DNA of 64,000 nt from Candidatus Hydrogenedentes bacterium ADurb.Bin170 (GTDB lineage: Bacteria; Hydrogenedentota; Hydrogenedentia; Hydrogenedentales; CAITNO01): contig MWCY01000014.1 in the NCBI GenBank assembly GCA_002070275.1, positions 1 to 64,000 on the forward strand, in the 5' to 3' direction. How positions within the stretch are numbered: the stretch's first letter is position 1; every line of letters begins with the position of its first letter. The position numbers and the translations under genes are program-made. The notes below the pieces were generated by a model, which did no database searches, was not told the DNA's origin, and saw only the letters and a list, made by a program, of their open reading frames with translations. Below are positions 5,789 to 29,347 of this stretch, one piece after another.

Positions 5789-5792
5789 TAGC

Positions 5793-7124: not shown

Positions 7125-8206
7125 GCACAGAAGCCCGTCCGCTGATTATAGGCTCGTCGCCGCATATCCGTGTGAAGCAAAGTGTGCCGGATATAATGTT
7201 TCATGTGGCTCTGGCGCTGCTTCCTGTAGCCGCCTTTGCGGTCTGGTCTTTCGGACTCAGTGCACTGCTGCTGCTGCTGACGACTACGGCGGCATGTGTG
7301 GCTACAGAACATACTGCCTGCCTGATTGCACGCCGTTCCACCACCATCCGCGATTGGAGTGTGGTGGTGACCGGTCTGATTCTCGGTCTGACCCTGCCGC
7401 CGTCAACGCCGTTATGGATGGCGGTGCTGGGCAGTATTTTTGGTGTTTCTGTCACGAAATCGCTTTTCGGCGGACTGGGCTACAACTGCTTTAACCCTGC
7501 ACTGGTCGGGCGTGCTTTTTTGCAGATTGCCTTTCCCATCCCGCTGACGACCTGGACACCGCCCGACCTTCCCGGCAGATTTTCCAGCCTGCTCCCGACC
7601 ACGCTGACCTTTCCTTTCCTGCGCGCCGATACTGCGGCACTTGCGGATTATATACGCACGGCACTCGCCTCGGGCGGCGTGGACGGCTGGTCGGGTGCCA
7701 CACCCCTTTCCATGTGGAAGTTTGCGGAAGTGCCTCAGTTTGAGTCACTGCCACGGCTCTTTCTGGGTTCCATAGCGGGATCTACCGGGGAGACTGCCAC
7801 CTGGCTGATCATTCTGTGCGGTCTGTACCTGATTGCCCGGAACATGATGAACTGGCGCATTCCTGCGGGCATGCTTCTGGGTGCTTTTCTTCTGAGCGGC
7901 GCTTTCTGGCTTTCCGATAAAACCCACTATCCCAGTCCGATGTTCATGCTTTTTTCCGGCGGATTGATGTTTGGCGCCCTATTTATGGCGTCGGACATGG
8001 TCGCATCTCCCATGACATCGGCGGGCGTATGGATTTATGGTTTTTTTATCGGCATGGTGACAGTGATTATCCGTATTTTTGGTGCACTGCCTGAGGGTGT
8101 TATGTTTGCCATTCTTCTTGGCAATGCCGTCTCCCCTTTGATTACCAGTGCAACCCAACCCAGAACTTATGGTCTGGTGCGACAGAAAAGATGGATCAAG
8201 CAATGA
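7121..8206 (+). CDS. rnfD: Rnf complex membrane subunit RnfD
   Basis: RnfD is a polytopic ion-translocating subunit with covalently bound FMN. The ATG at 7121 overlaps the rnfC stop (ATGA) and has GGGAGG at 7108-7113. The open frame extends further upstream, but those codons lie inside rnfC and are not needed. The 361-residue protein has about ten hydrophobic helices, the family segment GGLGYNCFNPALVGRAFLQ and the flavin-attachment motif SGAT in DGWSGATPLSMW (about residue 190). It ends with another ATGA overlap into rnfG. Confidence 0.95.
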   Translation: MSTEARPLIIGSSPHIRVKQSVPDIMFHVALALLPVAAFAVWSFGLSALLLLLTTTAACVATEHTACLIARRSTTIRDWSVVVTGLILGLTLPPSTPLWMAVLGSIFGVSVTKSLFGGLGYNCFNPALVGRAFLQIAFPIPLTTWTPPDLPGRFSSLLPTTLTFPFLRADTAALADYIRTALASGGVDGWSGATPLSMWKFAEVPQFESLPRLFLGSIAGSTGETATWLIILCGLYLIARNMMNWRIPAGMLLGAFLLSGAFWLSDKTHYPSPMFMLFSGGLMFGALFMASDMVASPMTSAGVWIYGFFIGMVTVIIRIFGALPEGVMFAILLGNAVSPLITSATQPRTYGLVRQKRWIKQ

Positions 8207-8886
8207 GTGTTTCGGAAACCACCCCCCCTGTGGATCAGAAGAAAGACAATGCCGGAAGTCTGGCAATGCTTCGGACTCTTGGCGCAATTTCTTTTGTGTC
8301 GGGTATCCTGCTGTCTGTAGTGTATCAGGCGACTTTTTCACGCATTCAAACGAATACGGAAGAACGCATCCGGAGCACCGTTCTTGAACTGGTTCCGGGT
8401 TCGGTCATCCAGAAAGAATTTACGTTCTTTTCAGAAGCCAGCCCTGATGTTCCGCGTACTGTTTATGCGGGGTATGATGCGTCGGGTACTTTTCTCGGGG
8501 TTGCGCTGGAGGCAATAGATCTTGGCGGTTATGGAGGTGAAATCAAACTGCTCTACGGCTATATTCCGGATGAGCACAAAATAGTGGGCACCAAAGTGCT
8601 CCTGTGCAAGGAGACGCCCGGTCTTGGCGACAAGATAAAAACCGACGAGCATTTTCAAAAGAACTTTGAGTCTCTGTCAGTTCCTCTGGATGATTCCAGA
8701 CAGCATCTTCTGTATCCGTTGAAGCTGGTGAAGGCAGGAGCGGGCGGCGGACCGGGGCAGATAGAGGCGATTTCAGGAGCAACGATTTCCTCGACAGCTG
8801 TGGTGAATGGCATGAAAGAAAGCACAGAAGTGGTGCTCCCTCTTGTTCATCAGCACTTGCAGGAATTGAAGGAGCAGGGCAAATGA
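8203..8886 (+). CDS. rnfG: Rnf complex FMN-binding subunit RnfG
   Basis: RnfG is a periplasm-facing flavoprotein anchored by one helix (about residues 24-42). The C-terminal FMN-binding domain has the covalent attachment motif ISGATISSTAVV (about residues 189-200), in which the Thr binds FMN by a phosphoester in this family. I chose the ATG at 8203 because it reproduces the ATGA overlaps seen at rnfC/rnfD and rnfG/rnfE; an ATG at 8191 is possible and would add four residues. A run of seven C occurs near the start (8222-8228) but the frame is intact. Confidence 0.93.
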   Translation: MSVSETTPPVDQKKDNAGSLAMLRTLGAISFVSGILLSVVYQATFSRIQTNTEERIRSTVLELVPGSVIQKEFTFFSEASPDVPRTVYAGYDASGTFLGVALEAIDLGGYGGEIKLLYGYIPDEHKIVGTKVLLCKETPGLGDKIKTDEHFQKNFESLSVPLDDSRQHLLYPLKLVKAGAGGGPGQIEAISGATISSTAVVNGMKESTEVVLPLVHQHLQELKEQGK

Positions 8887-9539
8887 GTATGGAGAAAAAA
8901 GGCCCCTCTTCGTGGGATGTGTTTTTTGCAGGATTCTGGCGGGACAATCCTGTTTTCGTCATGCTGCTGGGCACCTGTCCGACACTGGCGGTGACTAACA
9001 GCGTGATCAACTGCTTTGCCATGGGCGTGTCCACCCTGTTCGTGCTGGTCATGTCAGGCATTCTGATTTCGATGCTGCGCAATTTTATTCCGAAACAGGT
9101 GCGCATAGCTTCCTTCATTGTGGTGATAGCCACCTTTGTGACCATTGTGGATTATCTGATTCAGTCCATCAGTCTGGATCTTTATGACAGTCTGGGTGCG
9201 TTTATCCAGCTGATTGTGGTGAACTGCATTATCCTCGGCAGGGCGGAAGCATTTGCTTCTCGCAACGGTGTTATGCGTTCCGTGCTGGATGCGATAGGCA
9301 TGGGCATCGGCTTTACTATTGCGCTGCTCTGCCTGGGAGTTGTGCGCGAAGTGCTTGGCAACGGCACGCTTCTGATGAATACGCCCTATGAGATTTCGCT
9401 GTTCGGTCCGCGCTTTGAGCCCTGGTCTGTCATGATACTGCCGCCCGGAGGATTTTTCGTCCTCGGTGTGGAACTTCTGTTTTTCAATTGGTGGCGTAAA
9501 CGCAAGGAAGCCCGGGCGCTTGCTCAGGCAAAAGCATAA
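8883..9539 (+). CDS. rnfE: Rnf complex membrane subunit RnfE
   Basis: The 218-residue polytopic NqrD/RnfE-family protein is related to RnfA. It has six predicted helices and the two conserved half-site cysteines in LGTCPTLAVTNSV (about residues 31-43) and VVNCIILGRAEAFA (about 113-126), which in Rnf/Nqr structures share an intramembrane [2Fe-2S] cluster with RnfA. The ATGA overlap with rnfG and its 12-bp gap to rnfA place it in the same transcript. A basic C-terminal tail (WWRKRKEAR) faces the cytoplasm. Confidence 0.95.
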   Translation: MSMEKKGPSSWDVFFAGFWRDNPVFVMLLGTCPTLAVTNSVINCFAMGVSTLFVLVMSGILISMLRNFIPKQVRIASFIVVIATFVTIVDYLIQSISLDLYDSLGAFIQLIVVNCIILGRAEAFASRNGVMRSVLDAIGMGIGFTIALLCLGVVREVLGNGTLLMNTPYEISLFGPRFEPWSVMILPPGGFFVLGVELLFFNWWRKRKEARALAQAKA

Positions 9540-9551
9540 GAGGCGAGCATC

Positions 9552-10133
9552 ATGAATCCTGAATCTCTTCCTTCCGTCTTTATTAATGCCTGTATCGTCA
9601 ACAACTTTGTCCTGAGCATGTTTCTGGGCATCTGCCCCTTTCTGGGTGTGTCCAACAAAAAGGACACAGCGGTACGCATGGGCATTGCCGTCACCTTTGT
9701 CATGCTGGTCTGTTCTGTGTGCACGTATGGCATCAACTTTGTGCTTGACAGCGTTGATGCGCCTTATCTGAAACTGATCTGCTACATCGTTGTGATTGCA
9801 TCGGCGGTGCAGCTGGTTGAAATGGTCATTAAAAAATACAGCCCGGCGCTTTTCCGTGCGCTTGGTATTTTCCTGCCGCTTATTACCACCAATTGCGCCA
9901 TCCTTGCCCTTGCCATGTTTCAGACGCAGAAAGAATACAACTTTATCCAATGCATCGTTTATGCTGTCGGCGCCGGTGCGGGCTATACGCTTGCGTTGAT
10001 TATCATGGCGGGCATGCGTGAAAAGCTGGAGCTTGCCGATGTGCCGGATGTGGCGCAAGGAGCTGCCATCACGCTGATTCTGGCAGGCATTCTGTCGCTG
10101 GCGTTCATGGGCTTTGCAGGTCTCGGAGGCTGA
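9552..10133 (+). CDS. rnfA: Rnf complex membrane subunit RnfA
   Basis: The 193-residue RnfA/NqrE-family protein has six helices. Its cysteines lie in LGICPFLGVSNKKDTAVRMG (about residues 24-43) and TTNCAILALAMFQT (about 114-127), the partners of those in RnfE for the intramembrane [2Fe-2S] cluster. The length is exactly typical. It is the last subunit gene of rnfBCDGEA. All six Rnf genes are intact, so the complex should function, generating an ion gradient from ferredoxin oxidation or making reduced ferredoxin by reverse flow. Ion specificity (Na+ or H+) cannot be read from the sequence. Confidence 0.96.
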   Translation: MNPESLPSVFINACIVNNFVLSMFLGICPFLGVSNKKDTAVRMGIAVTFVMLVCSVCTYGINFVLDSVDAPYLKLICYIVVIASAVQLVEMVIKKYSPALFRALGIFLPLITTNCAILALAMFQTQKEYNFIQCIVYAVGAGAGYTLALIIMAGMREKLELADVPDVAQGAAITLILAGILSLAFMGFAGLGG

Positions 10134-13928: not shown

Positions 13929-16900
13929 ATGTTAACCCCCCCCGTTTCATTTTTTGTGCACTGCTGGCGCTGGTACTGGCAGGCAGTGTTTTGCCGGCGC
14001 ATGCGGCGGATTGCGATCCGGATACAACAAAACCTGTACTGACGATTGTACAACGGGAAGACAGGTCTTCGTATCAAAACTATCCCGGAGTATTTTCCGG
14101 ATGGTTTTATGATGCAGTTCCCTGCGGATCGGACTGGGCGGCTGAAGGGCCGTCTTCGATCAGCGCTCTTGACAATTGTGACGGGGCTGTTCCGGTCACG
14201 GTCGTGATTCACGATGTGCAGGTTGTCGGTATGTCGCCGGTTTTTACCCCTATTGCCAATTTAGGTCTTACAGAGAGTACCTGGACGACCCGGCCCGGCA
14301 TGTACCGGCTGATCTACAGCGCCAAAGACGGGGCAGGGAATTCATCAAGTGAGACAGTCGGGGCACAGGTGCAGGAAGGCTGCGCTGAAGAAGGGGAACC
14401 CGTAGAAGGCGAGCCCGTGGTAGAAGGTGAGCCTGAACCGGGTGCTCCAGTCATAACGATACAGCATCGGGAGGAAAACGGAGGTTATTGCAATATTTCT
14501 TTGCTTGATGAGCCTGTTTTTGTTTACGACTCAATAGAATGCGGAGCAGACTGGGCATCAGTAGGGCCTCTCTCTGTCACCGCTGTTGACAGTGATAAGA
14601 ACCCTCTTACTGTCTCAATGTTAGTTTATGTTTACATGTATGATTCAGAAAATAAAGTGCTGAAATTAGTTTCTGTTTCAAATCAGGAGCCCTGGACGGC
14701 GTCTTTCGGTTATTACCAGATACGGTACAAGGCGACCGACAGCGGAGGTAAGACAGCACAAGTGACAGTGATGGCGATTCCCAGGAGTTGCGAAACAGGC
14801 GGGGAAATTATAGGCTGCCATCCTTTTATAGAGAAGCCAATACTGGCAGTCCAGCAAAATATGGAATACTGCACGCGGGCAAGCGGTTCCAATCATTTTT
14901 TGTATACACTCGACTGCTGGGATGCCTGGGAATTTTTCGGTCCTGTAACTGCCTGGGGACTGGATATATGCCGCAACAAACTCGATGTTGTTACGCATGT
15001 TGAATTTTGGCAGGATAACGGCGATGCCGGAGCCTGGGAGCCTATCGAAACTCTGGGCCTTAATATGAACACCTGGAGCAGTCGGCCCGGTTCGTACCGG
15101 GTGTTTTACATGGTTACGAATGGTGACCCGAAAGGTGTCTGGGTGTCGCGCTATGTTATTGCCGATGTAGCAGACAATTGCACCTACTATTCCGGCGGAG
15201 CGGGTACTGAAGGAGATCCTTATCTTATCGCTAACGTGCGGGACTGGCGCCGGCTCATGCTGAGCGAAAGCGACTGGGATAAGCATTTCCGGGTGATAGC
15301 AGATATAGATTTAACCCAAGTCCATGTGTTTCCCGTAGGCAACGCAGATGTGCCCTTTACCGGCGTTATGGATGGTCAGGGGCATACGCTTTCCAATTGC
15401 GCAGTGGAGAATGTCGGCGGCTTTCAGAATAATGTCGGACTTTTCGGCGCCGTAGGAGGAGGGGCCTATATTCACAATCTGCATCTGGAGAATGCCAGTG
15501 TGCCGGGAAATCAGGGTGGGGGCGGTTTAGCGGGATCAGTGACTGAGTCCCGTCTGGAAAATTGTTCCGTATCCGGCATAGTAAAGGGCACTACCTTTAT
15601 AGGCGCTTTAGTCGGGCATGCGATAAACAGTGAGATTACTTCGTGTTCCGCCGACGCCGAAGTGGAAGCATCAGGGCATGCGGGGGTGCTCATAGGTGTT
15701 GCTGAGGACTGCGCCGTATCCTTCTGCTCCTCTGCCGGCTTGCTGGTCAGCTATACGAGTGCCGGCGGCCTGGTCGGCAGACAGGTTGGCGGTATTATTT
15801 CAGACAGCACCTCTGCTGCTGAAGTGCAAGGTTTCGAGGATACGGGCGGTTTTGTCGGGACAATGCAGGGCGGAGAGATCAGTCGGAGCACTGCGACAGG
15901 GAAAGTCGTGGGCACTTATGCGAATACAGGCGGATTTGTGGGACACATGAACCAGGAAGCAATGATCTTTCTCTCTTCTGCCAGCGGTCAGGTTGAGGGT
16001 GCCCTGGCCGCCGGTGGATTTGCGGGTAAACTCTATCAGGCAACTATCCGCCAGTCCTCAGCGGTCGGATCAGTAACAGGTGAGCAGCGTGTGGGCGGAC
16101 TGGTCGGTCAATTGCTTGAAGGTTTTGTCCGAAACTCCTATGCGAGAGGTTCAGCAAGTGCGCCTCTGCGCTATGCGGGCGGATTGATCGGAACGCTCAA
16201 CTACGGTACTGTAAAAAATTGTTACTCCACCGGCGTTGCCGAGAGTAATATTCTGCCGGGCGGATTGATCGGCTATTACATAAACGGCTTTGTGCAGCAG
16301 TCCTATTGGGACACTGAAGCCTCCGGCCTGGCTGCGAGCGGTGCGGGCGAAGGGCGCACGACTGAGGAGATGACCGCGCCCCATGCTGAAAACACGTATC
16401 TGGACTGGGATTTTGGAGAAATCTGGATTGAAGATACGGACGGCACCGTCAATGACGGGTATCCCTATTTGCATACAGGCGTAGTGGACATTGATGATTG
16501 TGACCCGGACATCACACCTCCTGAAATCAAGTTTGAGCATCGTCCGGAGAATTCGCAGTGGCTGGAAGATATCGGTTTCTATGTCTATACGTTGAATTGC
16601 GGTGATGACTGGAACGTAAGAGGACCCATTTCTGTGGAAGCAGTCGATAACTGCGCAGGTTATTTTTTGCTGCACTCAGAAATTCTGGGGCTGATTGAAG
16701 ACGAAGAAGAAAATCTGGAGCCGGTGCCACTGGAAGATCTGGGCGTGGATATCAACTCCTGGACAGGCAGGCCTGGTTTGTATGTGGTTAACTACTCGGC
16801 GACCGACATTTCGGGCAACAGTACGGAAGTGCACGTTCTGGTGCTCATTGAAGACAACTGCTATGTGCCTGAAGGGGAGCCAGTCGAAGGCGAAATAGAA

Positions 16901-19108
16901 GGCGAAGACGAATGCGATCCCGATGAAGCGGCGCCTGAGGTTGTGCTCAGCCACCGCAGTGACGGGAAATGGGATGCCGTGCGGGGCATGGTTGTCTATA
17001 AGATCGACTGCAGCGATTCCTGGAGCGAAAAAGGCCCCAGCAAAGCGAGTGCTGTTGACAACTGCGACGTGGATCTGGTGCCGGTAATGACTATAGCAGC
17101 TCTTATCGGTGGCCTCGAGGTTCCTCTGGAAGAAGCCGGTCTGGATCCGGGCAGCTGGACACGTGCCTTCGGCGAATATGTGATTACATATACAGCGACA
17201 GATCAGGCAGGAAATACGGCGTTTGAAAAAGTCGGTGCCCTGGTGGCAGACAGATCCGCACCCGAGATTCACATCGTGCAGGCGGATGCGAATGTTGCCT
17301 GGGACAATGCGGCCAAGCGTTTTGTCTACACACTGGAAGTGGGCAGTGACTGGGAGGTTTACGGGCCCAAATCCGTGACGGCTGACGATAAATGCGAAGG
17401 TGCTCTGGAAGTTACCCGGCAAATCTTTGTTCTGGTTCCCGGACAAAACGGAGAGAAAATCATTACCTTGGCAGAGGCGGGACTGGACGAAGAAAACTGG
17501 AGTCGCACGCTGGGTACCTATCTTGTCCGTTATTCTGCCGAAGACGCCTCCGGCAATATCGATACGGAATCTGTGGCGGTGAAGCTCAGAGATACGACAG
17601 CCCCGGTGGTTGTGGTGACAAACGGCGAAAACGGCAGCTGGTCGGATGATGAGGTGCCGGTTTTTGTTTACAGTCTGGATTGTCAGGACGACTGGGCAGC
17701 GAAAGGACCGATTGACGTTACGGCAACTGACAACTATGACGGCGATCTTCCCGTGACGACAGTAATTAGAAAACTGCGTCTGCGGAACGGTGTGTATATT
17801 GAAGAAACCCTGGAGTCGCAGGGTCTGAATGAAAACAACTGGACAGGACATCCCGGTCTTTATCTGATCCGGTATACGGCAGTGGACAGCTCGGGCAATT
17901 CCTCCACGGAATCAATCCGGGCTCTTGTGGAAGACCGCTCGGCTCCTGTGATTACCATTGTGCACCCGACAGCGGGCGGCGGTGAAGAACCCTATGTGTA
18001 TACGCTGGACTGCGGAGACAGCTGGGAAACGCATGGCCCCGTATCTGTAACTGCCACAGACCTTTGTGACGGTGACAGACCGGTTGTTTCCGTGATCACA
18101 ACAGCGGACGGAACCGGCGTGCGTGACGGCTGGACAAAGATTCCCGGAAATTACACAGCAAAGTACACCGCGACAGACAAGGCAGGAAAAACTGCCACGG
18201 AAACGGTGCAGATCGTGATTTCCGACAAAACAGCACCTGTAGTGACGATAGCGCATCGTCAGGGCAGCAGCTACTCGGCAGATGAAAATCTGTACACACT
18301 TAACTGCGGAGACCTCTGGATAAACATCGGTCCTGTGAGCGCATCGGCGTGGGATCAGTGTGACGGTGTCATTAGCAAAGTGACATCGGTGATTACGGCA
18401 CTGGTGCCTGCCGGCGAGGGGTACGAGGAAGTGAGTCTGGAAAGCCTTGGACTCAACAACACTACCTGGGTGCGCACCCCCGGACTGTACCTTGTCCGTT
18501 ATACGGCGAAAGATGCGGCGGGCAATGTGGGCACAGCGGTTACCCGTGCGCTTGTTGACGACAGGATCCTTCCAGTTTTCACGGCAACACACCGTGAAGG
18601 CAACGGTGTGTGGCTTGAGGCAGGGTTGTTCCAATACACCCTTGAGTGTGGTGCTGACTGGCGGTCTCAGGGTCCGTCCCGTGTTGTCGCTTCGGATAAC
18701 TGCGACGGAAGTCTCCCGGTGTCCTCTGTGGTGGAAGCACTGGTTGACGGAGAGACGGTTCCTGTTGCCGACCCGAACAGCTGGACGAGTGTTCCCGGAC
18801 TTTATGTTGTTCGCTACACGGCAACAGACCGATCCGGAAACAAAGCCGAGCTGCTGGTTCAGGCGCTTATTGCAGACTGTGACGAAGTCGAAGGCGAAGA
18901 AGAGGATCTGAGCTACCATCCCTTTGATGGAAATAATAATAACCGGATCAATGGTTTCGAAGCTTCGGACAGCATACGTGCCTGGCAGAACGGCGATTTC
19001 CCCATGGAATGGGCGCTTCGGGCGCTTTACATTTACAAGCAGGGTGGTGCTTATCATTATGATGATGCCTTTGACCCGCCGCTGTGCTGGGTGCCTGACA
19101 AGAGCTGA
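13929..19108 (+). CDS. Giant secreted Ig-like/GLUG repeat protein, start off-frame at a poly-C tract
   Basis: The main open frame encodes about 1,700 residues: three Ig-like repeats, a GLUG-type block (about residues 420-800, repeated GGLVG/GGFVG with turn cysteines and serines), then seven more Ig-like repeats. Each repeat carries YTLDCGDDW-, SVTATDNCDGDLPV- and GLYVVRYTATDxSGN-type motifs. Glu-Gly-Glu linkers (EGEPVEGEP) separate regions, and the C-terminus is an EF-hand/CWxP domain. A good GGAG site and ATG at 13929 are followed by eight C (13936-13943). Read as written, this frame stops after about 37 codons, whereas nine or six C would give a classic signal peptide (MLTP...ALLALVLAGSVLPAHA) fused to the large frame. 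In the large frame the first start-like codon is TTG at 13991, already inside the signal peptide. Either a phase-variable OFF state or an indel error explains this. The role is probably adhesion or cell-surface matrix. Confidence 0.85.
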
Positions 19109-19223: not shown

Positions 19224-20366
19224 TTAGCGGTTAGTGCTGTCGGCAGCACCGGCATCTTTTAAAATGACGGTGAAGGTTGTGCCTTCATCCGGGACACTGC
19301 TTACAGAGACCGAACCGTTATAGAGGAGTGCGATTTTCTTCACCGTGGACAGTCCCAGTCCGCTGCCGAGGATTCTGCTGGTTCGCGTATTTTTAATTCT
19401 TGCGAAGTCGTTAAAAATACGGGAGCAGTCTTCTGCACTCATGCCGATGCCGGTATCGGCTACCTGAATTTTCACTTCATCGCCTTTTTTATAAAAGGCA
19501 ATCTCCACTTTCCCCTGATCCCGGTTGTATTTAATGGCATTGGAAATGAGATTGTTCAGAATGATGTCAATTTCTGTATGATCAGCCAGTATGGATACAC
19601 GTCGTGTGTCCAATACCAGTTCGATACCCCGTTGCGCCGCCTCACCCGCCAGCGCATCCATTGCCAGCCGCGCCGCTTCGACCAGATTGCAGGGTTCGAG
19701 GGTGCGCGCCCGTTCTCCCGATTCGATGCGGGTGAGGTCAAGCAGATCGGAGATCATTTTGCGCATATATTCCGAACGTAAAAGGCAGCGGTCCAGATAG
19801 GCGTCATAGCTTTTCATATCCTCGCCCAGCGTCCGGTCGCGCATAACACGCAGATAGTTTTCGATGGCGTTTATAGGCACCTGCAGTTCATGCGCCAGCA
19901 CGGAAATGAATTGGAAACGCACACGTTTCTTTTCAGCGGCAAGCTCCCGGGCACGCCGTGCCATGATGACATGATTGGCGACTTTTTCGAGGACCCGCTT
20001 CAGTTCCACAGGCGTGAAGGGCTTCGGGAGCATGTCATAGGCACCCTGGCGGGCGGCATGAATGGCGTTTTCGATGGAGGCATACGCCGTGATCATGACG
20101 GTCTGAATGCCCAGATTCATGGCGGCAATCTGTTCGAGCACCTGAAAACCGCTGATGCCCGGCAATTTGTTGTCCAGCAGCAGAATTTCCGGAGGAGATT
20201 CCCGTATGAGCTGGAGTGCCTGTTCCCCCGTTTCTGCCTGCTCCACTTCAAAATGCGCTTCTGTTTCCTCTTCGGAGAGGACAATCGTCATCTTTTTAAG
20301 GATGCGGGCAATACTCACGCGGATGCCGATTTCATCATCCACCACGAGTACTTTGATGGTATCCAT
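19224..20366 (-). CDS. Response-regulator/histidine-kinase hybrid (receiver at N-terminus)
   Basis: The 380-residue cytoplasmic protein begins with a CheY-like receiver (residues 1-125: acidic pair D10/D11, phospho-acceptor D65 in LLLDNKLPG, conserved T/A switch near 93 and K115 in LPKPF). A HisKA dimerisation domain follows with H159 in FISVLAHELQVP, then a HATPase domain with NNLISNAIKYN, VADTGIGM and GSGLGLS boxes. There is no DNA-binding output domain. It sits 40 bp downstream of the hydrogenase-domain kinase gene and should be co-transcribed. A receiver preceding a kinase suggests that the upstream kinase phosphorylates it to change its own kinase activity, passing the signal to a regulator encoded elsewhere. 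The final regulator is not in the window. Confidence 0.93.
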   Translation of the reverse strand: MDTIKVLVVDDEIGIRVSIARILKKMTIVLSEEETEAHFEVEQAETGEQALQLIRESPPEILLLDNKLPGISGFQVLEQIAAMNLGIQTVMITAYASIENAIHAARQGAYDMLPKPFTPVELKRVLEKVANHVIMARRARELAAEKKRVRFQFISVLAHELQVPINAIENYLRVMRDRTLGEDMKSYDAYLDRCLLRSEYMRKMISDLLDLTRIESGERARTLEPCNLVEAARLAMDALAGEAAQRGIELVLDTRRVSILADHTEIDIILNNLISNAIKYNRDQGKVEIAFYKKGDEVKIQVADTGIGMSAEDCSRIFNDFARIKNTRTSRILGSGLGLSTVKKIALLYNGSVSVSSVPDEGTTFTVILKDAGAADSTNR

Positions 20367-20406: not shown

Positions 20407-22491
20407 TTAATCAGCGTGCAGAACCGGTGCTGCCTGTGCCGGATTTTCCCGGGTGTCCGCCTGAGTGGGCCCGGCGGGATTGCGTGGCAGAATCACGGTA
20501 AAGGTACTTCCTGTGCTTCCTGCTTCCGCATCTGTGCAACTTGTGACGCGCAGGTCACCACGGTGCATTTTGGCAATGCCGTACGATACGGCGAGTCCCA
20601 TGCCTGTGCCCTGCCCGACGTCTTTTGTTGTGAAGAAGGGCTCGAAAATGCGTTTTACATGCTCTTCAGGGATGCCACATCCGGTATCCTGCACGGAGAA
20701 GCGGTTGTCGTGATCACCGCATTGTGATCTGAGAGTGAGCACGCCGCCGTCAGGCATGGCATGGCAGGCATTGGTTAACAGGTTAATCATGAGCTGGATG
20801 ATCTGATCCCGATCCATATACACCTCAGCAGCGGGATTTTCATGGACAATGCGTACCTCGATATTTTCCGGAATGATCATCAGCTTCAGCAGATCTTCAA
20901 AAAAACGATGCACACTGACAAAGGAAAAAGAGGCCTTGTGCTGCCGTGCAAAATGCAGCAGGCCGCCCACAATATTTTTGCACCGGTCTGCCTGGGTGAT
21001 AACCATCTCCAGATCTTCCCGGACAGAGGGACCATCCGTTGCATGTTCCTCCATAAGCATGTGTGCATACATGAGGATCACGCCGAGGGGGTTGTTGAGC
21101 TCATGGGCGATTCCGGCGGCAAGATGCCCCATGCTGGCGAGTTTTTCCGCATGCATAAGCGTTTCCTGGGTCTGGGCAAGTTCTTCCTTGGACTGAGCCA
21201 GGTTTCTGACCGCTTCCCGCAACTGATCTATCACAAAGGGAAGGCACATTTCATGTTCAGCCAGATCTTTATAGATTGCCACGGCATGTTCGCGACAGGT
21301 GCCGTAACCGCAGGCGCCGCAGTTCAGCTCATCCTCAGGCGAAAATTTGCCCAACTGCTTGAGTATGGCTTCCAGATCATTCCGGGAAGGGTCAAAGATC
21401 CGCTGGTCGTCGGCGGCAAAAGTCTGGCTCAGATCGAGAGAGGAAAAACGTTCGAGATCCGCTTCCCACTGTGTCCGGTCGAGCAATTCCATTTCCTGGC
21501 GTACCTGAGCGCTGATCCGCTGGCGCCGCCGGAAAAGCGGATCGTCGTTGGAAATGCCCGGACCCATAATACAGCCTTCACAGGCCAGTATTTCGAGGAG
21601 ACGCGGACGGCATTGGCCCGCCTGAAACTCTTTGATTGCCTCAACAAAACCATGGCGCCCGTCTGTTGTGATAATGTCGTCTGAGGTCAGATCTTCCATG
21701 AGTCCGGCGGACTGAATGAGACCGCGGCTGAGAGGGAAGAGTCCGCCCAGGCCACCCAGAGGCGGATCAAAGGGCGATGCTTTAACCCGCCCGACAAATA
21801 TTCCCATATCAGAAGCAAGTCGCAGCATCTCTTCAAAGGTGAGGACGACGTCAATTTCCTGACCGTTGCCGGAGGTTCGCGCCTCTTCTTTCTTGGCAAT
21901 ACACGGACCGATAAAGACCACTTTGGCGTTACGGTCGTAATACTCCCGGACAACACGTGCCATGGCAACCATCGGTGAGGCAAGCGGGGCGAGGGCTCCG
22001 ACGAGATCGGGAAAAAAATGCTCCACATAAAGAACAATGGCAGGGCAGGTGGTGGCAATATGATGGGCCTGGGGCGAGCCTTCAAGCAGTTTGCGGTATT
22101 GGCGGGCGACCAGATCGGCGCCGAAGGATACTTCGCAGACCCGCGAAAAACCCATGGCGCGCAGAATGCCCACAAGGCGCTCCTGCGGAATATGCGGAAA
22201 AGCGGCGGGGAAGGATGGGGCAACAAGCGCAATCAGCGGATCGGAGCCCTGCATCAGCGTGCGGAGTTCCGGTGTTGAATCGTAGGCTTTCTTGGCGTGC
22301 TTGCCGCACACCTGAACACAATTGCCACAGCCGATGCAGCGTGCCGTAAGGATATCCGCTTGTGCGTCTGCGACCCGGATTGCTTTGGCAGGGCATTCCC
22401 GCACGCAGGTATAACAGACGCGGCACCTTTCCTTGATGGTTGTGACAAGCGGTATTTTTTCAAAGCTGTTCATGCCATGATTGTACAACAT
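20407..22491 (-). CDS. Hydrogenase-domain sensor histidine kinase (HydS-like)
   Basis: The 694-residue protein joins a hydrogenase-like sensor to a kinase. Two [4Fe-4S] motifs (C23/26/29/33 and C52/55/58/62) precede an [FeFe]-hydrogenase large-subunit domain that keeps all four H-cluster cysteines: C149 (TTCPA), C197 (GPCIAKKEE), C304 and C307 (ACEGCIMG). The second Cys of the classic TSCCP motif, the proton relay, is absent. A further FeS cluster motif of RnfB type follows (C391, C394, C399, C416), then a short coiled linker without PAS, HisKA with H463 (GIAHELNNP), and HATPase (NACHAM, DTGCGIP, GTGMGLA). It probably senses H2 or redox state rather than turning over rapidly. An internal ATG at 22473 is an alternative start. 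A Rex operator lies just upstream. Confidence 0.93.
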   Translation of the reverse strand: MLYNHGMNSFEKIPLVTTIKERCRVCYTCVRECPAKAIRVADAQADILTARCIGCGNCVQVCGKHAKKAYDSTPELRTLMQGSDPLIALVAPSFPAAFPHIPQERLVGILRAMGFSRVCEVSFGADLVARQYRKLLEGSPQAHHIATTCPAIVLYVEHFFPDLVGALAPLASPMVAMARVVREYYDRNAKVVFIGPCIAKKEEARTSGNGQEIDVVLTFEEMLRLASDMGIFVGRVKASPFDPPLGGLGGLFPLSRGLIQSAGLMEDLTSDDIITTDGRHGFVEAIKEFQAGQCRPRLLEILACEGCIMGPGISNDDPLFRRRQRISAQVRQEMELLDRTQWEADLERFSSLDLSQTFAADDQRIFDPSRNDLEAILKQLGKFSPEDELNCGACGYGTCREHAVAIYKDLAEHEMCLPFVIDQLREAVRNLAQSKEELAQTQETLMHAEKLASMGHLAAGIAHELNNPLGVILMYAHMLMEEHATDGPSVREDLEMVITQADRCKNIVGGLLHFARQHKASFSFVSVHRFFEDLLKLMIIPENIEVRIVHENPAAEVYMDRDQIIQLMINLLTNACHAMPDGGVLTLRSQCGDHDNRFSVQDTGCGIPEEHVKRIFEPFFTTKDVGQGTGMGLAVSYGIAKMHRGDLRVTSCTDAEAGSTGSTFTVILPRNPAGPTQADTRENPAQAAPVLHAD

Positions 22492-22516: not shown

Positions 22517-22534
22517 TTGTGAAACGCTGCACAA
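22517..22534. promoter_or_regulatory. Probable Rex operator
   Basis: TTGTGAAACGCTGCACAA fits the 18-bp Rex consensus TTGTGAA-N4-TTCACAA at 13 of 14 defined positions (one mismatch in the right half). It lies 26 bp from the start of the hydrogenase-domain kinase gene and about 245 bp from rex itself, in the divergent intergenic region. Confidence 0.75.
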
Positions 22535-22778: not shown

Positions 22779-23486
22779 ATGTCTCTGGTTCGTGATATAT
22801 CGCCTAGAACGATAGAACGGCTCAGCCTGTACCGCAGGCTGCTCCTTCCGAGGCACGAAGGAGAAGGCAGTTATATCTTTTCTCATGATCTTGCGGAGTT
22901 GGCGGGGGTTACAGCGACACAGGTCCGGCGGGATTTCATGCAGCTGGGGTGCATGGGTGTACCGCGCACAGGGTACCGTATCGGGGATTTATTGAGCGGG
23001 ATCAGCAATATTCTTGACGCGCCGTCGGGGCAGCGGGCGGCCCTTGTGGGCGTGGGGCATCTGGGGGCGGCACTTTTAAATCATTTTTCCGGACGCTGGC
23101 GCTGGCTGCACATTCATGCCGCTTTTGATACGGATCCAGCAAAAACAGGGGGTACTATCCACGGCTGTCAATGTTTTCCGCTGACCGACCTGAGCCATCT
23201 GGTTCGCGAGCGGAATATCGAACTGGGCATTATTACCGTGCCTAAGGAGCATGCGCAGGAGGTGGCTGATCTTCTGATTACTTCGGGTGTGCGCGGTCTT
23301 TTAAATTTTGCCCCTCTCCGCCTTCGGCATCCCGCAACCATTTATGTTGAAAATGTGGATCTGACTTCGGCTTTTGAGACGGTGGCGTATTTTTCGCGTT
23401 CCCGTTCATCGTCTGCGTTGATAAGTGAGCCTCACCGCGGTTTCCCCTCATTGGACGACCGGAAACTTTCGGGAGGCTGTTTTTAA
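22779..23486 (+). CDS. rex: Redox-sensing transcriptional repressor Rex
   Basis: Rex binds its operator when NADH/NAD+ is low and leaves it when NADH rises. The 235-residue product has an N-terminal winged helix (about residues 8-80, with VTATQVRRDFMQLGCMGVPRTGY) and a Rossmann domain with ALVGVGHLGAALLNH (about 88-102), AFDTDPAKTGG and GIITVPKEHAQEVADLL, ending in the swap helix VENVDLTSAF. The length is slightly above the usual 210 because of a C-terminal tail. It is divergent from the hydrogenase-sensor operon and 50 bp upstream of the hydrogenase genes, so control of both is likely. Confidence 0.95.
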   Translation: MSLVRDISPRTIERLSLYRRLLLPRHEGEGSYIFSHDLAELAGVTATQVRRDFMQLGCMGVPRTGYRIGDLLSGISNILDAPSGQRAALVGVGHLGAALLNHFSGRWRWLHIHAAFDTDPAKTGGTIHGCQCFPLTDLSHLVRERNIELGIITVPKEHAQEVADLLITSGVRGLLNFAPLRLRHPATIYVENVDLTSAFETVAYFSRSRSSSALISEPHRGFPSLDDRKLSGGCF

Positions 23487-23536: not shown

Positions 23537-24076
23537 ATGATGGTAGACAAAGCGCAGTGTTGCTGCAGCACGGAAGAGGCGACGGAGGAGGAATTGCTCA
23601 GCCGCCTTGACGAAGTGATTGCAGAATACAAAGGTAAGCCCGGCGCGCTGATTCCGGTGCTGCAGATGGCCCAGGCGATTTTCGGCTATTTGCCTGAATC
23701 GGCACTGAAAAAGGTTGCTCTGGGTCTGGACAAGTCTTACAGCGAAGTGGCGGGCGTGGTGAGTTTTTACGCCTTTTTCTCGACCAATCCCAAAGGACGG
23801 CAGACCATCCGTGTGTGCCTGGGTACAGCCTGTTATGTCCGTGGCGGCAAGCAGGTTCTGGAAGCACTGAAAAGCAAACTGAAAATCGAAGTGGGCGAAG
23901 CGACACCGGACCGGGAACTTTCTCTGGAAGTGGCACGCTGTTTCGGTGCCTGCGGTCTGGCTCCCACCATGTCCATTGGAGAAGAAGTCTACAAACGTGT
24001 GCGTCCTGCCAAAGTCGGTGAAATTATTGAAGAGTATTACAAGAACAACGTGTCTGTGAAAGGAGCAGCAGTATGA
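23537..24076 (+). CDS. hndA: NADH-linked [FeFe]-hydrogenase subunit A (NuoE-like)
   Basis: The 179-residue thioredoxin-fold [2Fe-2S] protein is homologous to NuoE and HydC/HndA. Cluster ligands are in CLGTACYVRGG (CX4C) and CFGACG (CX3C). The helical N-terminal domain contains LIPVLQMAQAIFGYLPE. AAGGAG at 23527-23532 leaves 4 nt to the ATG at 23537 and 7 nt to the ATG at 23540, so 23540 may be the real start. It overlaps the next gene by 4 bp (ATGA). It passes electrons between the flavin subunit and the hydrogenase subunit. The N-terminal QCCCS is an uncommon Cys triplet. Confidence 0.94.
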   Translation: MMVDKAQCCCSTEEATEEELLSRLDEVIAEYKGKPGALIPVLQMAQAIFGYLPESALKKVALGLDKSYSEVAGVVSFYAFFSTNPKGRQTIRVCLGTACYVRGGKQVLEALKSKLKIEVGEATPDRELSLEVARCFGACGLAPTMSIGEEVYKRVRPAKVGEIIEEYYKNNVSVKGAAV

Positions 24077-24474
24077 GCAAAGATATGAACCCGATTACCG
24101 GAATTGGAGATCTTCAGGCAATCAAAGAGCGCGTGTTGAAACAGACGGCACTCCGCAACGACGGCTACCGTACCTGTGTCACGGTGCATATGGGAACCTG
24201 CGGTATTGCGGCGGGTGCCCGTGATGTGATGGCTGCTGTCATGGACGAACTGGAAAAGAGCAACCGCACGGACATCCGGGTCACTACTTCCGGCTGCATA
24301 GGCATCTGCGTACAGGAGCCTGTGATGACTATTGAGACGCTGGACGGAGAGAGCGCACTGTACGGAAAACTGGACGACGAGAAAGCACGTCTCGCTTTTC
24401 GCGAGCATGCGCTGGAAGGCAAGGTCGTCACCCAGCTGATCATTGGTAAAGGCAGAGAACAAATAACGGGTTAA
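24073..24474 (+). CDS. hndB: [2Fe-2S] thioredoxin-like subunit HndB
   Basis: The 133-residue product has a thioredoxin-like ferredoxin fold with VHMGTCGIAAGA and TTSGCIGICVQEP. It matches the small HndB subunit of Desulfovibrio-type NADP-reducing hydrogenases, found between the NuoE-like and NuoF-like genes. Only three Cys sit at canonical positions (CG..., GCIGIC), so cluster binding is likely but may be altered. It starts within the hndA stop codon and ends 13 bp before the flavoprotein gene. AAAGGAG lies upstream of its ATG. Confidence 0.9.
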   Translation: MSKDMNPITGIGDLQAIKERVLKQTALRNDGYRTCVTVHMGTCGIAAGARDVMAAVMDELEKSNRTDIRVTTSGCIGICVQEPVMTIETLDGESALYGKLDDEKARLAFREHALEGKVVTQLIIGKGREQITG

Positions 24475-24487
24475 GGAGACTGGCTCT

Positions 24488-27400
24488 ATGAAGATTGCCC
24501 GAATGCATATGGTTATGTGCTATGGCACCGGCTGTGTTGCCAGCGGCTCGCCTGCTGTAAAAGCGGCGCTTCTTGCTGCACTCAAAAAAGCCGACCTTTC
24601 TGACGAAGTATCTGTGATTGAGTCCGGATGCAATGGTTTCTGCGCAAACGGCCCCATTCTTGTTGTGTATCCCGGCGGCATTTTCTATCACGACCTGAAG
24701 CCTTCCGACATGGAAGAGCTGGTGCAGGAGCATGTGCTGAAGGGGCGCCCGGTGGAACGGCTGATGTTCACTGATCCGGTGAGCAATAAGCCCGTTCCGC
24801 TCGTGAAGGATATTCCCTTCTTCTCCCGTCAGTGTGTCCGTGTTCTGTCGAACAAGGGGCGTATTGCGGCGGAAAGCATTGAGGAATACATCGCTTATGA
24901 CGGCTACAGCGCCTATCTCAAAGCGCTGATGCGGATGAAACCTGAAGAGATCATCGCGGAAGTGAAGGCATCGGGCCTGCGCGGTCGCGGCGGTGCGGGT
25001 TTCCCAACAGCCATCAAGTGGGATCTGTGCAGAAAATCGCCTGGCGATTTGAAATACATTCTCTGCAATGCGGATGAAGGTGACCCGGGAGCGTTTATGG
25101 ACCGCAGTATTCTGGAAGCGGATCCTCATGCGCTGCTGGAAGGCATGCTGATCGGAGCGTTGGCAATCGGCGCTTCGGAAGGCTACATCTATTGCCGTGC
25201 AGAATACCCTCTGGCGCTGGAGCGCCTGCGCCACGCCATTGCGGAATGCCGTGCCATGGGACTTATCGGCAAAAACATTCTGGGCACGGACTTTTCCTTT
25301 GATTTCCATATTGCCCAGGGATCGGGTGCTTTTGTATGCGGTGAAGAGACGGCGTTGATGCGTTCGGTGGAAGGCAAGCGGGGCGAACCCCGCCCGCGTC
25401 CACCTTTCCCGGCTGTGGCTGGCCTGTGGGAAAAACCATCTGTGCTGAACAACGTCGAAACATTTGCGAATATTCCGCTGATTATCCGCAACGGCAGTGA
25501 CTGGTATCGCAGCAAGGGTACGGAAAAAAGCCCGGGCACGAAGATTTTTGCTGTGACCGGCAAGATCAACAATATCGGGCTGGTGGAAGTACCCATCGGC
25601 ATTTCTCTCGGCGAGATCGTTTACGATATCGGCGGTGGTATTCCCAATGGCAAAGCATTCAAAGCAGCGCAGATTGGCGGGCCTTCCGGCGGCTGCATTC
25701 CTAAAGAGCATTTGAATGTGCCCATTGATTTCGAGACGCTGACAGAGCTGGGTGCCATCATGGGCTCCGGCGGTCTGATTGTAATGGATGAAGACACGTG
25801 CATGGTGGACATGGCGCGATTTTTCCTGGATTTCGTACAGGAAGAGTCCTGTGGCAAATGCGTCCCCTGCCGTATCGGCACCAAGCGTATGCTTGAGATC
25901 CTCGACAGGATCTGCGCCGGAGAAGGCGAGGAGGGCGATATTGAAAAACTGATCACCCTCGGAGAGCAGATTAAAGACACTTCCCTGTGCGGACTCGGCC
26001 AGACGGCTCCCAATCCGGTGCTCTCCACAATCCGCCACTTCCGCGAAGAATATGAAATCCATATTCGCGAGAAAAGGTGTCCGGCCGGCGTCTGTTCTGG
26101 CCTGGTTCGTGCCCCTTGTATCAGCGCCTGCCCGGCAGGCGTGTATGTCCCCGGGTTCGTGTCGCTTGTGGGCGAAAAACGTTATGTTGAAGCGCTTCGT
26201 GTGCACCGTGACAAGAACCCCTTTGCCTCTGTCTGCGCACGTGTATGTTTCCATGCCTGTGAACGGAAATGCCGTCGCGCCGATCTGGATGATCCCGTTG
26301 CAATCCGTGGCGTGAAGCGGTTCATGGTGGATCAGGAAGAAGCCATTCAGGTTCCTGAAATCCGTGAAAATGCCGTCAATGCGAAAAAGAAAGTTGCCAT
26401 TATCGGTGCCGGTCCTGCCGGTCTGACTTGTGGTTTCTTCCTGGCGCGGCTGGGTTACAAACCGACGATTTTTGAAGCGGCGTCCAAACCGGGCGGCATG
26501 CTGGTGCAGACAATTCCCGCCTACCGCCTGCCGAGAAAAGAGCTGGAACGTGAAATTGACATGATTCAGCAGATGGGTGTCACGGTGAAGACCAATCAGG
26601 TTCTGGGCTCAGACTTTACCCTTGAAGGACTGCGGGATGAAGGATACGAGGCAGTGTTTCTGGGCGTCGGCGCTCCCACCGGCACCCGGCTGAGCATGCC
26701 CAATGCGGATGCGGAAGGCGTGGACGATTCCCTCACCTTCCTCAGCCAGTACAATCTTACCGGCAGCGCACCTGTAGGCAAGAAAGTGGCGGTCATCGGC
26801 GGCGGTAACGCAGCCATTGATGCGGCGCGTACAGCGCTGCGTCTGGGCGCTGAATCGGTCACCATTCTGTACCGGCGCACCCGGGACGAAATGCCTGCCT
26901 TCAAGGAAGAGATTGATGCGGCGGAAAGCGAAGGCGTTGAACTGAAAACGCTGGTACTGCCTCAGGAAATTATTGCGGAAGACGGCAAGGTTGTCGGTGT
27001 GCGGTGCTTCAACATGTGGCTCGGCGATTTCGACAGCAGCGGCCGCCGCAGGCCTCAGGTCAGTGAAGATACGGAAGCCTTTATAGTGGAAGCCGATCAG
27101 GTCATTGCCGCCATCGGTCAGAAGCTCGACAGCAAGCCGCTGCTCGGATCGCTGACCGTGAATTTTGCGCCCAACGGCTTTATCGCAGCTGATCCACTGA
27201 CCGGACAGACATCGGTGCCCTGGCTTTTTGCGGGTGGTGATGCTGCTACCGGCCCGGCGTCGGTCGTCGAAGCGGTCGGTGCCGGAGAACGTGCCGCCGT
27301 AGGCATTGACAAATTCCTGAGCGGAGAAGAGCATGCCTTCTGGCGTGACGAATATGCCGTGGATTCGGATTACGATCCGGACGCTGACCCTTCCATGGAG

Positions 27401-27553
27401 GGCCGTGCGCAGGTCGAAATGCTGGCTGCAGAAGAACGTGCTCACAGTTTCGATGAAGTGGAACTGGCCTTCAGTGAATCCGTGGCGCTTCGTGAAGCCA
27501 AACGCTGCCTGCGCTGTGATTACCGTGCTCCCGGTCAGACTTCGTGTAAATAA
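24488..27553 (+). CDS. hndC: NuoF-like flavoprotein fused to GltD/NfnB-like oxidoreductase
   Basis: The 1021-residue subunit has three parts. Residues 1-110 are a [2Fe-2S] thioredoxin-like domain (C11, C16, C48, C52). Residues about 110-540 are the NuoF/HydB core with FMN/NADH motifs GLRGRGGAGFPTAIKW, NADEGDPGAFMDR and GSGAFVCGEETAL, and the [4Fe-4S] ligands ESCGKCVPCR...SLCGLG. From about residue 543, where HydB/HndC normally has a 2[4Fe-4S] ferredoxin tail, there is instead a full GltD-type module: Cys-rich N-domain (CPAGVC, CISACPAGV, CARVCFHACERKC), FAD site VAIIGAGPAGLTCG (about 636) and NAD(P) site VAVIGGGNAAIDAAR (about 766). A second pyridine-nucleotide site suggests coupling to NADP(H). 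No internal stop interrupts the fusion. Confidence 0.93.
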   Translation: MKIARMHMVMCYGTGCVASGSPAVKAALLAALKKADLSDEVSVIESGCNGFCANGPILVVYPGGIFYHDLKPSDMEELVQEHVLKGRPVERLMFTDPVSNKPVPLVKDIPFFSRQCVRVLSNKGRIAAESIEEYIAYDGYSAYLKALMRMKPEEIIAEVKASGLRGRGGAGFPTAIKWDLCRKSPGDLKYILCNADEGDPGAFMDRSILEADPHALLEGMLIGALAIGASEGYIYCRAEYPLALERLRHAIAECRAMGLIGKNILGTDFSFDFHIAQGSGAFVCGEETALMRSVEGKRGEPRPRPPFPAVAGLWEKPSVLNNVETFANIPLIIRNGSDWYRSKGTEKSPGTKIFAVTGKINNIGLVEVPIGISLGEIVYDIGGGIPNGKAFKAAQIGGPSGGCIPKEHLNVPIDFETLTELGAIMGSGGLIVMDEDTCMVDMARFFLDFVQEESCGKCVPCRIGTKRMLEILDRICAGEGEEGDIEKLITLGEQIKDTSLCGLGQTAPNPVLSTIRHFREEYEIHIREKRCPAGVCSGLVRAPCISACPAGVYVPGFVSLVGEKRYVEALRVHRDKNPFASVCARVCFHACERKCRRADLDDPVAIRGVKRFMVDQEEAIQVPEIRENAVNAKKKVAIIGAGPAGLTCGFFLARLGYKPTIFEAASKPGGMLVQTIPAYRLPRKELEREIDMIQQMGVTVKTNQVLGSDFTLEGLRDEGYEAVFLGVGAPTGTRLSMPNADAEGVDDSLTFLSQYNLTGSAPVGKKVAVIGGGNAAIDAARTALRLGAESVTILYRRTRDEMPAFKEEIDAAESEGVELKTLVLPQEIIAEDGKVVGVRCFNMWLGDFDSSGRRRPQVSEDTEAFIVEADQVIAAIGQKLDSKPLLGSLTVNFAPNGFIAADPLTGQTSVPWLFAGGDAATGPASVVEAVGAGERAAVGIDKFLSGEEHAFWRDEYAVDSDYDPDADPSMEGRAQVEMLAAEERAHSFDEVELAFSESVALREAKRCLRCDYRAPGQTSCK

Positions 27554-27574: not shown

Positions 27575-29347
27575 ATGGCAAAAATAACCATAGATAACGA
27601 AGTGGTGGAAGTGCCTGATGGCACCACCATTCTTGCCGCTGCGCGGCGGGCGGGCATTAAAATCCCCACCCTGTGTTATTTGGAAGACGTTCAGGCTATT
27701 GGTGCCTGCCGTGTATGTATGGTGGAAGTGGAAGGCGCCCGTACGCTGGTCGCGTCTTGTGTTGCGCCGGTGAGTGACGGCATGGTCGTGCATACGAACA
27801 GCAAAAAAGCGCGTGCCGCCCGTAAAATGGTGGTGGAGCTGCTGCTCTCCGATCATACCGGCGACTGCCAGGTGTGCGACCGCAACGACGACTGCGAACT
27901 GCAGGCGCTCGCACGGGATCTCGGCATCCGGGACATCACCTATCAGGGTGAAAAGAGCCGCAGACTTGTGGACGACAGCACCCCGGCACTGGTGCGCGAC
28001 AGCGCAAAGTGCGTGCTGTGCCGCCGTTGCGTTACCGTGTGCGCCGACACCCAGAGTGTGGGCGGTATTTTCCCGCAGGGCCGCGGTTTTGAAACCGTGA
28101 TCGGGCCCGCCTTTGCCGGTGAACTCGATGATATCGTCTGTGTCCAGTGCGGGCAGTGTGCCGCGGTATGCCCTGTCGGTGCGATTTCCGAGCGTGATCA
28201 GGTGCAGGAAGTCTGGGCGGCGCTGGACGATCCGACGAAAACCGTGGTCGTTCAGACGGCGCCGGCGATCCGTGCAGCACTGGGCGAATGCTTTGGCCTT
28301 GAGCCGGGCACCTTGGTGACCGGACGCATGGTGACGGCACTGCGCCGCCTCGGATTCCATGCGGTTTTCGACACCAACTTTGCCGCCGACCTGACGATTA
28401 TGGAAGAGGGTAACGAGCTGCTGACCCGGCTGAAAAAAGCACTGACCGGTGAAGGCGACGTGGCGCTTCCCATGTTCACGAGCTGCTCTCCGGGCTGGAT
28501 CAAGTACATTGAGTACTTCTATCCGGATATGCTGAACAATCTGTCCACCTGCAAATCACCGCAGCAGATGTTCGGTGCCATTGCCAAGACCTACTATGCC
28601 CAGAAGATCGGCAAGAAGCCCGAGGATATGATTGTCGTGTCGATTATGCCCTGCACCGCCAAGAAGTACGAGGCGCAGCGGCCCGAGATGCGCGACAGCG
28701 GTGTGCAGGATGTGGACTATGTGCTGACAACCCGTGAGCTGGGCCGTATGATTACGGAAGCGGGTATTGACTTCGTGAACCTTCCCGACGGGAAGCAGGA
28801 TTCTCCCATCGGGCTGGGCTCCGGTGCTGCGGACATTTTTGCCAATACCGGCGGTGTCATGGAAGCCGCACTGCGGACTGCTTGGGAAGTGGTGACCGGA
28901 CAGGAACTGCCCTTCGATAATCTGCACGTGACCCCGGTTGCAGGTCTCGACGGGATCAAGGAAGCCTCCGCCACCTTTACCAACTGCCTGCCTGAATGGT
29001 CTTTCCTGGAAGGCGTTACCGCAAAAGTGGCGGTCGCCCACGGCCTCGGCAACGCCCGGAGACTGATTGAAAAGATCCGTGCCGGTGAAGCATCCTATCA
29101 CTTCATCGAAATCATGACCTGTCCCGGCGGCTGTATCGGCGGTGGCGGGCAGCCCCGTATGACCACCAATGCCATCCGCAAAAAACGCATCGAAGCCATT
29201 TACAAGGAAGACGAAGGCAAGGCACTGCGCAAGTCCCATAAGAACCCTGAAATCCTTCAGGTTTATGAGGAATTTCTGGGCGCACCGCTGGGTGAGCTGT
29301 CTCATAAACTGCTTCACACCAAATATACGCCCCGTACCAAGGTTTGA
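27575..29347 (+). CDS. hndD: [FeFe]-hydrogenase catalytic subunit
   Basis: The 590-residue catalytic subunit reversibly reduces protons to H2. Domains in order: [2Fe-2S] (C34, C45, C48, C62), His-Cys [4Fe-4S] (H94, C98, C101, C107), two [4Fe-4S] (C146/149/152/156 and C189/192/195/199), then the H-cluster domain with L1 C304 in FTSCSPGW, L2 C360 in MPCTAKK, and L3 C516/C520 in CPGGCIGGGG. S305 replaces the usual proton-relay Cys of TSCCP. The C-terminal SLYE-type tail ends in KLLHTKYTPR. Subunit make-up matches NAD(P)-linked, often electron-bifurcating hydrogenases that use ferredoxin. AAGGAG lies 8 nt before the ATG. The HydEFG maturases are not in the window. Confidence 0.96.
   Translation: MAKITIDNEVVEVPDGTTILAAARRAGIKIPTLCYLEDVQAIGACRVCMVEVEGARTLVASCVAPVSDGMVVHTNSKKARAARKMVVELLLSDHTGDCQVCDRNDDCELQALARDLGIRDITYQGEKSRRLVDDSTPALVRDSAKCVLCRRCVTVCADTQSVGGIFPQGRGFETVIGPAFAGELDDIVCVQCGQCAAVCPVGAISERDQVQEVWAALDDPTKTVVVQTAPAIRAALGECFGLEPGTLVTGRMVTALRRLGFHAVFDTNFAADLTIMEEGNELLTRLKKALTGEGDVALPMFTSCSPGWIKYIEYFYPDMLNNLSTCKSPQQMFGAIAKTYYAQKIGKKPEDMIVVSIMPCTAKKYEAQRPEMRDSGVQDVDYVLTTRELGRMITEAGIDFVNLPDGKQDSPIGLGSGAADIFANTGGVMEAALRTAWEVVTGQELPFDNLHVTPVAGLDGIKEASATFTNCLPEWSFLEGVTAKVAVAHGLGNARRLIEKIRAGEASYHFIEIMTCPGGCIGGGGQPRMTTNAIRKKRIEAIYKEDEGKALRKSHKNPEILQVYEEFLGAPLGELSHKLLHTKYTPRTKV

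Follow-up and report, generated by a model that had tools for sequence, protein, structure and literature searches.

The question raised by this locus is whether an iron hydrogenase joined to a histidine kinase within one polypeptide serves as an enzyme or as a sensor. In the window, the whole stretch of 64,000 nucleotides from Candidatus Hydrogenedentes bacterium ADurb.Bin170 that was analysed, the minus strand encodes at 20407..22491 a protein of 694 aa, referred to here as the hydS product. Our analysis indicates that it is a signalling kinase with a converted iron hydrogenase as its sensor half, and that it very probably works as a cellular gauge of hydrogen or redox state.

Domain architecture of the hydS product

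The protein is ordered as two [4Fe-4S] motifs, H-domain, FeS domain, coiled coil, HisKA and HATPase, with all features on the minus strand and all Pfam domain matches above curated cut-offs. The hydrogenase catalytic domain that the initial annotation assigned to this open reading frame is borne out by a match of residues 86-311 to Fe_hyd_lg_C (21559..22236; Pfam 8e-46). It is preceded by two [4Fe-4S] motifs matching Pfam Fer4 families over residues 20-66 (22294..22434), with the ligand sets C23, C26, C29, C33 and C52, C55, C58, C62, all invariant in alignment A1. It is followed by a C-terminal FeS domain of the form Cx2Cx4Cx16C (C391, C394, C399, C416; 21238..21327), which matches PF04060 over residues 389-418, as does the RnfB-like protein encoded in the same window, in agreement with the RnfB-type domain first noted there. 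The kinase half comprises HisKA at residues 454-517 (20941..21132; Pfam 3.4e-14), with phospho-acceptor His463 present in 104/104 relatives, and HATPase_c at residues 560-670 (20482..20814; Pfam 8.8e-24). Its His, N, G1 and G2 boxes are intact, and H463, N574 and G1/G2 are conserved. No PAS domain was matched by Pfam in the 694-aa protein at E<=0.001 and the kinase is fused directly, so the attached kinase and missing PAS domain of the initial annotation both stand.

A fold search, covering mainly residues 8-364 and so the sensor rather than the kinase half, gives CbA5H as the best match to the H-domain (Z 32.1, 348 residues at 3.0 A), and CpI entries also match at Z of about 29. Confidence in the structure model is low in the linker and over parts of the kinase half, with pLDDT below 50 at 430-470. 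Full length is kept in an 82%-identical orthologue and in dozens of relatives at 45-65% identity, which places the fusion far beyond chance.

Active site of the H-domain

CpI residue numbers were assigned to the family by motif. Motif 1, TTCP (22042..22053), supplies C149 (CpI C300) and reads 'ATTCP' with Thr148 at the position of the proton-relay C299, confirming the reported absence of the relay cysteine of TSCCP; among the 104 alignable relatives this position is T, D, S, P, A or N. Motif 2, GPCIAK (21892..21909), supplies C197 (C355) and K200 (K358), with Gly195 replacing M353, a substitution found in 104/104 relatives. Motif 3, EILACEGC (21571..21594), supplies C304 and C307. The four H-cluster cysteines C149, C197, C304 and C307 are invariant among the 104, and so are the equivalents of C300, C355, C503, S232, S323, P324 and K358, while Q325 has become Met and M497 Leu. 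The catalytic group A marks C299, M353 and M497 are thus represented in the hydS product by Thr, Gly and Leu.

The initial annotation was right that all four cysteines are kept, but it overlooked the spacing of the last pair. Motif 3 reads LACEGC and is therefore CxxC, as opposed to the canonical CxxxC of catalytic enzymes and the CxxxC (CEGGC) of a PAS-type sensor encoded in the same genome. All 104 kinase-type relatives have C-x-G-C here and the window protein offers CxxC only. In 58 of the 104 the motif is CCxGC, compatible with both spacings and the source of an apparent CxxxC in these relatives; inspected row by row, the alignment shows CxGC throughout. Selenocysteine was considered for several relatives with in-frame TGA codons and rejected, these being ordinary terminal stops overrun by the alignment.

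Introduction of M497L into CpI leaves [2Fe] not properly integrated, and TmHydS, with Ser at this position, matures well (PMC10055695). The genome also carries genes for the maturation proteins HydF and HydG. In Bacteroidota (L062, L067, L088, L101 and others) minus-strand PAS-type second sensors stand upstream of the operon; in most of them the K358 equivalent is gone, several also lack a ligand, the first Cys of motif 3, and the H-cluster itself may have been lost. That these second copies have mostly lost K358 makes its retention throughout the kinase-type relatives informative.

A fixed-length link to the kinase

A signalling helix with Leu heptads at 417, 424, 431, 438 and 445 runs up to H463 (21103..21243), and these leucines are found in nearly all relatives. 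C416 and H463 lie 47 residues apart in 103 of the 104 relatives; the exception, a Melainabacteria member, has 40, exactly seven residues or one heptad less. The C391-C416 spacing is 25 in 104/104, whereas the C307-C391 and H463-N574 distances vary. In the structure model a predicted helix spanning 417-433 begins directly after C416, the final ligand of the C-terminal cluster, and the link is presumably a rigid two-stranded coil starting at that ligand. Given the fixed C416-H463 spacing, the kinase seems to be under direct control of the cluster domain, and the 47-residue link suggests a way to achieve this without a PAS domain. Neither this helix nor the partner kinase described below featured in the initial annotation.

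Distribution and gene neighbourhood

A scan of named genomes returned at least 500 confirmed relatives, the best 80 of which were kept; among the matches listed are Hydrogenedentota, Bacteroidota, Planctomycetota, Lentisphaerae, Acidobacteria, Calditrichota and others, and many genomes from the same order encode full-length relatives. Judged by these matches, the kinase-fused form is a widespread bacterial family rather than a one-off fusion. In the phylogenetic tree a 100% branch separates the sensors from HydA, and the window protein and its lineage mates form a six-row clade, also at 100%. The placement that had been proposed as a check thus puts the protein outside catalytic group A, together with the PAS-type sensors.

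Divergent from hydS, on the plus strand, lie rex (22779..23486; NCBIfam NF003995, over cut-off), a nuoE-like gene (hydC/bfuC; 23537..24076), a 2Fe-2S ferredoxin-like, bfuD-like gene (24073..24474), a gene for a 1021-aa protein in which NuoF-type HydB is fused to a GltD-like module (24488..27553), and hydA, encoding a catalytic [FeFe]-hydrogenase (27575..29347; NCBIfam FeFe_hydrog_A6, 894 bits against a cut-off of 765). This gene order appears to resemble the BfuABDC (sub-type I) cluster of PMC11406978. The genome encodes five Fe_hyd_lg_C proteins, two of which are sensors; the second, PAS-type and of 579 aa (673-2409 of locus L005 on genome contig C35, minus strand), is preceded by a rex-like gene and has a further hydrogenase operon near (L140). 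Elsewhere in the window, plus-strand Rnf genes at 4862-8206 (RnfB-like, RnfC-like and RnfD/E-like) fit a ferredoxin/NADH-linked energy metabolism, and a 1705-aa protein at 13991-19108 (plus strand), in which similar domains recur alongside low-complexity sequence of the VEGEPVEGE type, has a surface or secreted look.

Across the wider family, 73 loci extend far enough upstream to be judged, and in 64 of them hydS comes immediately after hydA on the same strand. Rex is present in 34 of 44 loci, and rex and bifurcating hydrogenase genes are frequent neighbours of hydS. The initial annotation had placed the kinase next to hydrogenase genes that it might control, and in the window the two are indeed adjacent, though divergent. 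In the nearest lineage mates with readable flanks (L132, L135 and L136), however, no hydrogenase genes were found near the kinase pair, which adjoins unrelated genes in both of those checked. The adjacency in the window is therefore suggestive but unconserved within its own lineage. In L037 (about 7978-9657, minus strand) divergent NuoF-/NuoE-like genes lie by the kinase pair, where no HydA match was found, and the partner may be a different redox enzyme. In L111, labelled Thermoleophilia, the NuoE, HydB-GltD and HydA proteins are 68-72% identical to those of the window, for which horizontal transfer or a mislabelled bin are possible explanations.

A Rex-operator-like palindrome, TTGTGAAACGCTGCACAA (22517..22534), with one mismatch to TTGTNAANNNNTTNACAA, lies 25 bp before the hydS start codon. 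It is one site in the 287-bp divergent region and was matched by 26 of 5000 Markov versions of that region. In a check of the consensus, a site with at most one mismatch occurred in 7 of 45 rex upstream regions against 0.13 expected. The upstream regions of orthologous hydS genes lack the site, for which reason Rex control as a conserved hydS trait was rejected; such control would be local at best.

The partner kinase

Downstream of hydS by 40 bp, on the minus strand, lies a gene for a REC-HisKA-HATPase kinase of 380 aa (19224..20366). Among the 63 loci whose downstream sequence is long enough to tell, 59 have a partner kinase of this kind next to hydS. Of the 72 pairs identified, 56 are separated by an ORF, usually near 130 aa in length, which by its motif is a lone REC in 54 of the 56; the window pair has no lone REC between. 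Conservation of D65, K115, H159 and N276, along with the catalytic G residues, in the partner defines an N-terminal REC with a phosphorylatable Asp followed by DHp-CA, and the K115-H159 distance is 44 residues in 70/70. The recurrence of this gene next to hydS makes a second kinase the likely output. The cluster itself yielded no DNA-binding response regulator; further REC hits occur elsewhere in the genome.

A model for the sensor and its alternatives

A signalling rather than a catalytic role, as first proposed for this protein, is supported at the level of sequence by the fused intact kinase, the loss of C299, M353 and Q325, the retention of the [2Fe] pocket and the conserved kinase partner gene. 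We favour, with a probability of roughly 0.6, the reading that the hydS product belongs to the group C (BfuT/HydS) type and is a soluble histidine kinase sensing H2 or redox state, coupled through a coil and feeding a Rec-HK. The H-domain would hold a slow H-cluster, in which H2 binding or turnover shifts the redox or protonation state, and this change of state would reach the C-terminal [4Fe-4S] domain. As C416 caps the leucine-heptad helix running to DHp, movement of the cluster domain might then switch autophosphorylation at H463. Given that the C-terminal cluster of TamHydS is not reduced by H2 (PMC13104023), this transfer is more likely conformational than by electrons. The phosphoryl group would pass from H463 to the REC of the partner kinase, a Rec-HK of the LvrB type, whose activation could signal to a regulator encoded elsewhere and so adjust H2 or electron disposal. 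Within this scheme the domain anatomy and its conservation, the fixed spacing, the pairing of the two genes and the maturation genes are observed, and H-cluster occupancy, H2 as the ligand, the direction of phosphotransfer and the output are what we infer. The favoured reading draws on the domain set, the fold, the invariant pocket, HydF and HydG, the fixed spacing, the REC-HK partner and hydA adjacency in the wider loci, and has precedents in TmHydS and TamHydS (PMC10055695, PMC8163306) and, for a Rec-HK switched on when its Rec is phosphorylated, in LvrB (PMC13269768). Against it are the short CxxC of motif 3, Leu at the M497 position, the closest relatives with readable flanks, in which no hydrogenase genes are adjacent, and the low confidence of the structure model in the linker and some of the kinase half.

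The first two of these points would suit an H-domain that has no [2Fe] subsite and carries just a [4Fe-4S] cluster on C149, C197, C304 and C307, by which it senses redox, O2 or iron status; the published finding that H-cluster motifs are hardly found in Hydrogenedentota C1 proteins (PMC11406978) leans the same way. We regard this as improbable, since the K358 equivalent is invariant here, though mostly lost in the PAS-type second copies of Bacteroidota, and HydF and HydG are encoded. A kinase that kept its H-cluster might instead be charged from reduced ferredoxin or NADH-linked carriers via the N-terminal clusters and report on the cell's reductant and not on dissolved H2. Such a sensor of the redox pool is consistent with both N-terminal [4Fe-4S] motifs being intact, with rex and bifurcating hydrogenase genes often lying nearby and with the Rex-like site before hydS. 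It is nevertheless rather unlikely, as it leaves the invariant [2Fe]-pocket residues (equivalents of K358, S232, S323 and P324) unexplained. That the fusion is decayed or non-functional is hardly credible: altered motifs are all that speaks for it, whereas the ORF is intact and ligand, His and kinase motifs are conserved across many phyla.

It is possible, if on balance doubtful, that kinase-fused members have an H-cluster, or its remnant, with a shortened CxxC loop, that the kinase is switched directly via a fixed-length coil starting at a cluster ligand, and that a HydS to Rec-HK cascade carries H2 state to genes elsewhere. With sensor and kinase in one soluble polypeptide, H2-dependent autophosphorylation is assayable without finding a partner, and as the likely phosphotransfer partner is the product of the next gene, the sensory question becomes directly testable.

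Comparison with known systems

The hydS-type kinase is already known from the literature (PMC5037454, PMC11406978). HydDB names group C1 'histidine kinase-linked (putative)' and C3 'phosphatase-linked (putative)'; these share with the hydS product a proposed H2 sensing via kinases, although the group labels are themselves putative (PMC5037454). A review also describes the sensory role of these hydrogenases as putative for lack of direct physiological evidence (PMC8924675), and our literature search turned up no experimental work on a kinase-fused protein. Nor did the literature examined describe the REC-HK partner, the CxxC spacing or the heptad-fixed link to the kinase, although a wider literature may do so.

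Of the group C sensory traits, the two N-terminal [4Fe-4S] motifs with H-domain, the C-terminal Cx2Cx4Cx16C and the absence of C299 are all present, and the PAS domain that is part of the M2f definition is absent. The group D (M2e) mark is Ser or Thr at the M353 position, where the hydS product has Gly195. Since 83% of the sensory sequences in HydDB lack C299 (PMC10055695) and group D sensors have no PAS (PMC8163306), neither loss is distinctive. TmHydS, of group C and PAS-type, is alike in its lost C299, in M353 to Gly and in its sensory setting, and differs by its PAS domain, the lack of a fused kinase and Ser rather than Leu at the M497 position (PMC10055695). TamHydS, of group D, likewise has no PAS, carries a Cx2Cx4Cx16C cluster and has lost C299, and its gene is near a histidine kinase-like gene, but it has no fused kinase and has Ser rather than Gly at the M353 position (PMC8163306, PMC13104023). 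A CxxC ligand loop would set the kinase-fused members apart from both the catalytic enzymes and the CxxxC PAS-type sensors compared.

A close match is BfuT, the group C3 protein of sub-type V clusters published for Hydrogenedentota, which combines an [FeFe] H-domain with the histidine kinase domain also present in the hydS product (PMC11406978). An example genome of that study, CSSed162cmA_463, carries a 64% relative of the hydS product, whose HydDB sub-group, following the same paper, would be C3. The main text of PMC11406978 contains no occurrence of 'response regulator' and no REC-kinase partner. In sub-type V the bfuT gene is downstream of bfuA in a bfuCBA operon, whereas in the window the pair and a BfuC-BfuD-BfuB-BfuA-like operon point away from each other, with rex lying between them. 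For the partner kinase the prototype is LvrB, a Rec-HK activated by Rec phosphorylation (PMC13269768). It has the same REC-DHp-CA layout and likewise acts below another kinase, and it differs from the partner at 19224-20366 in its input.
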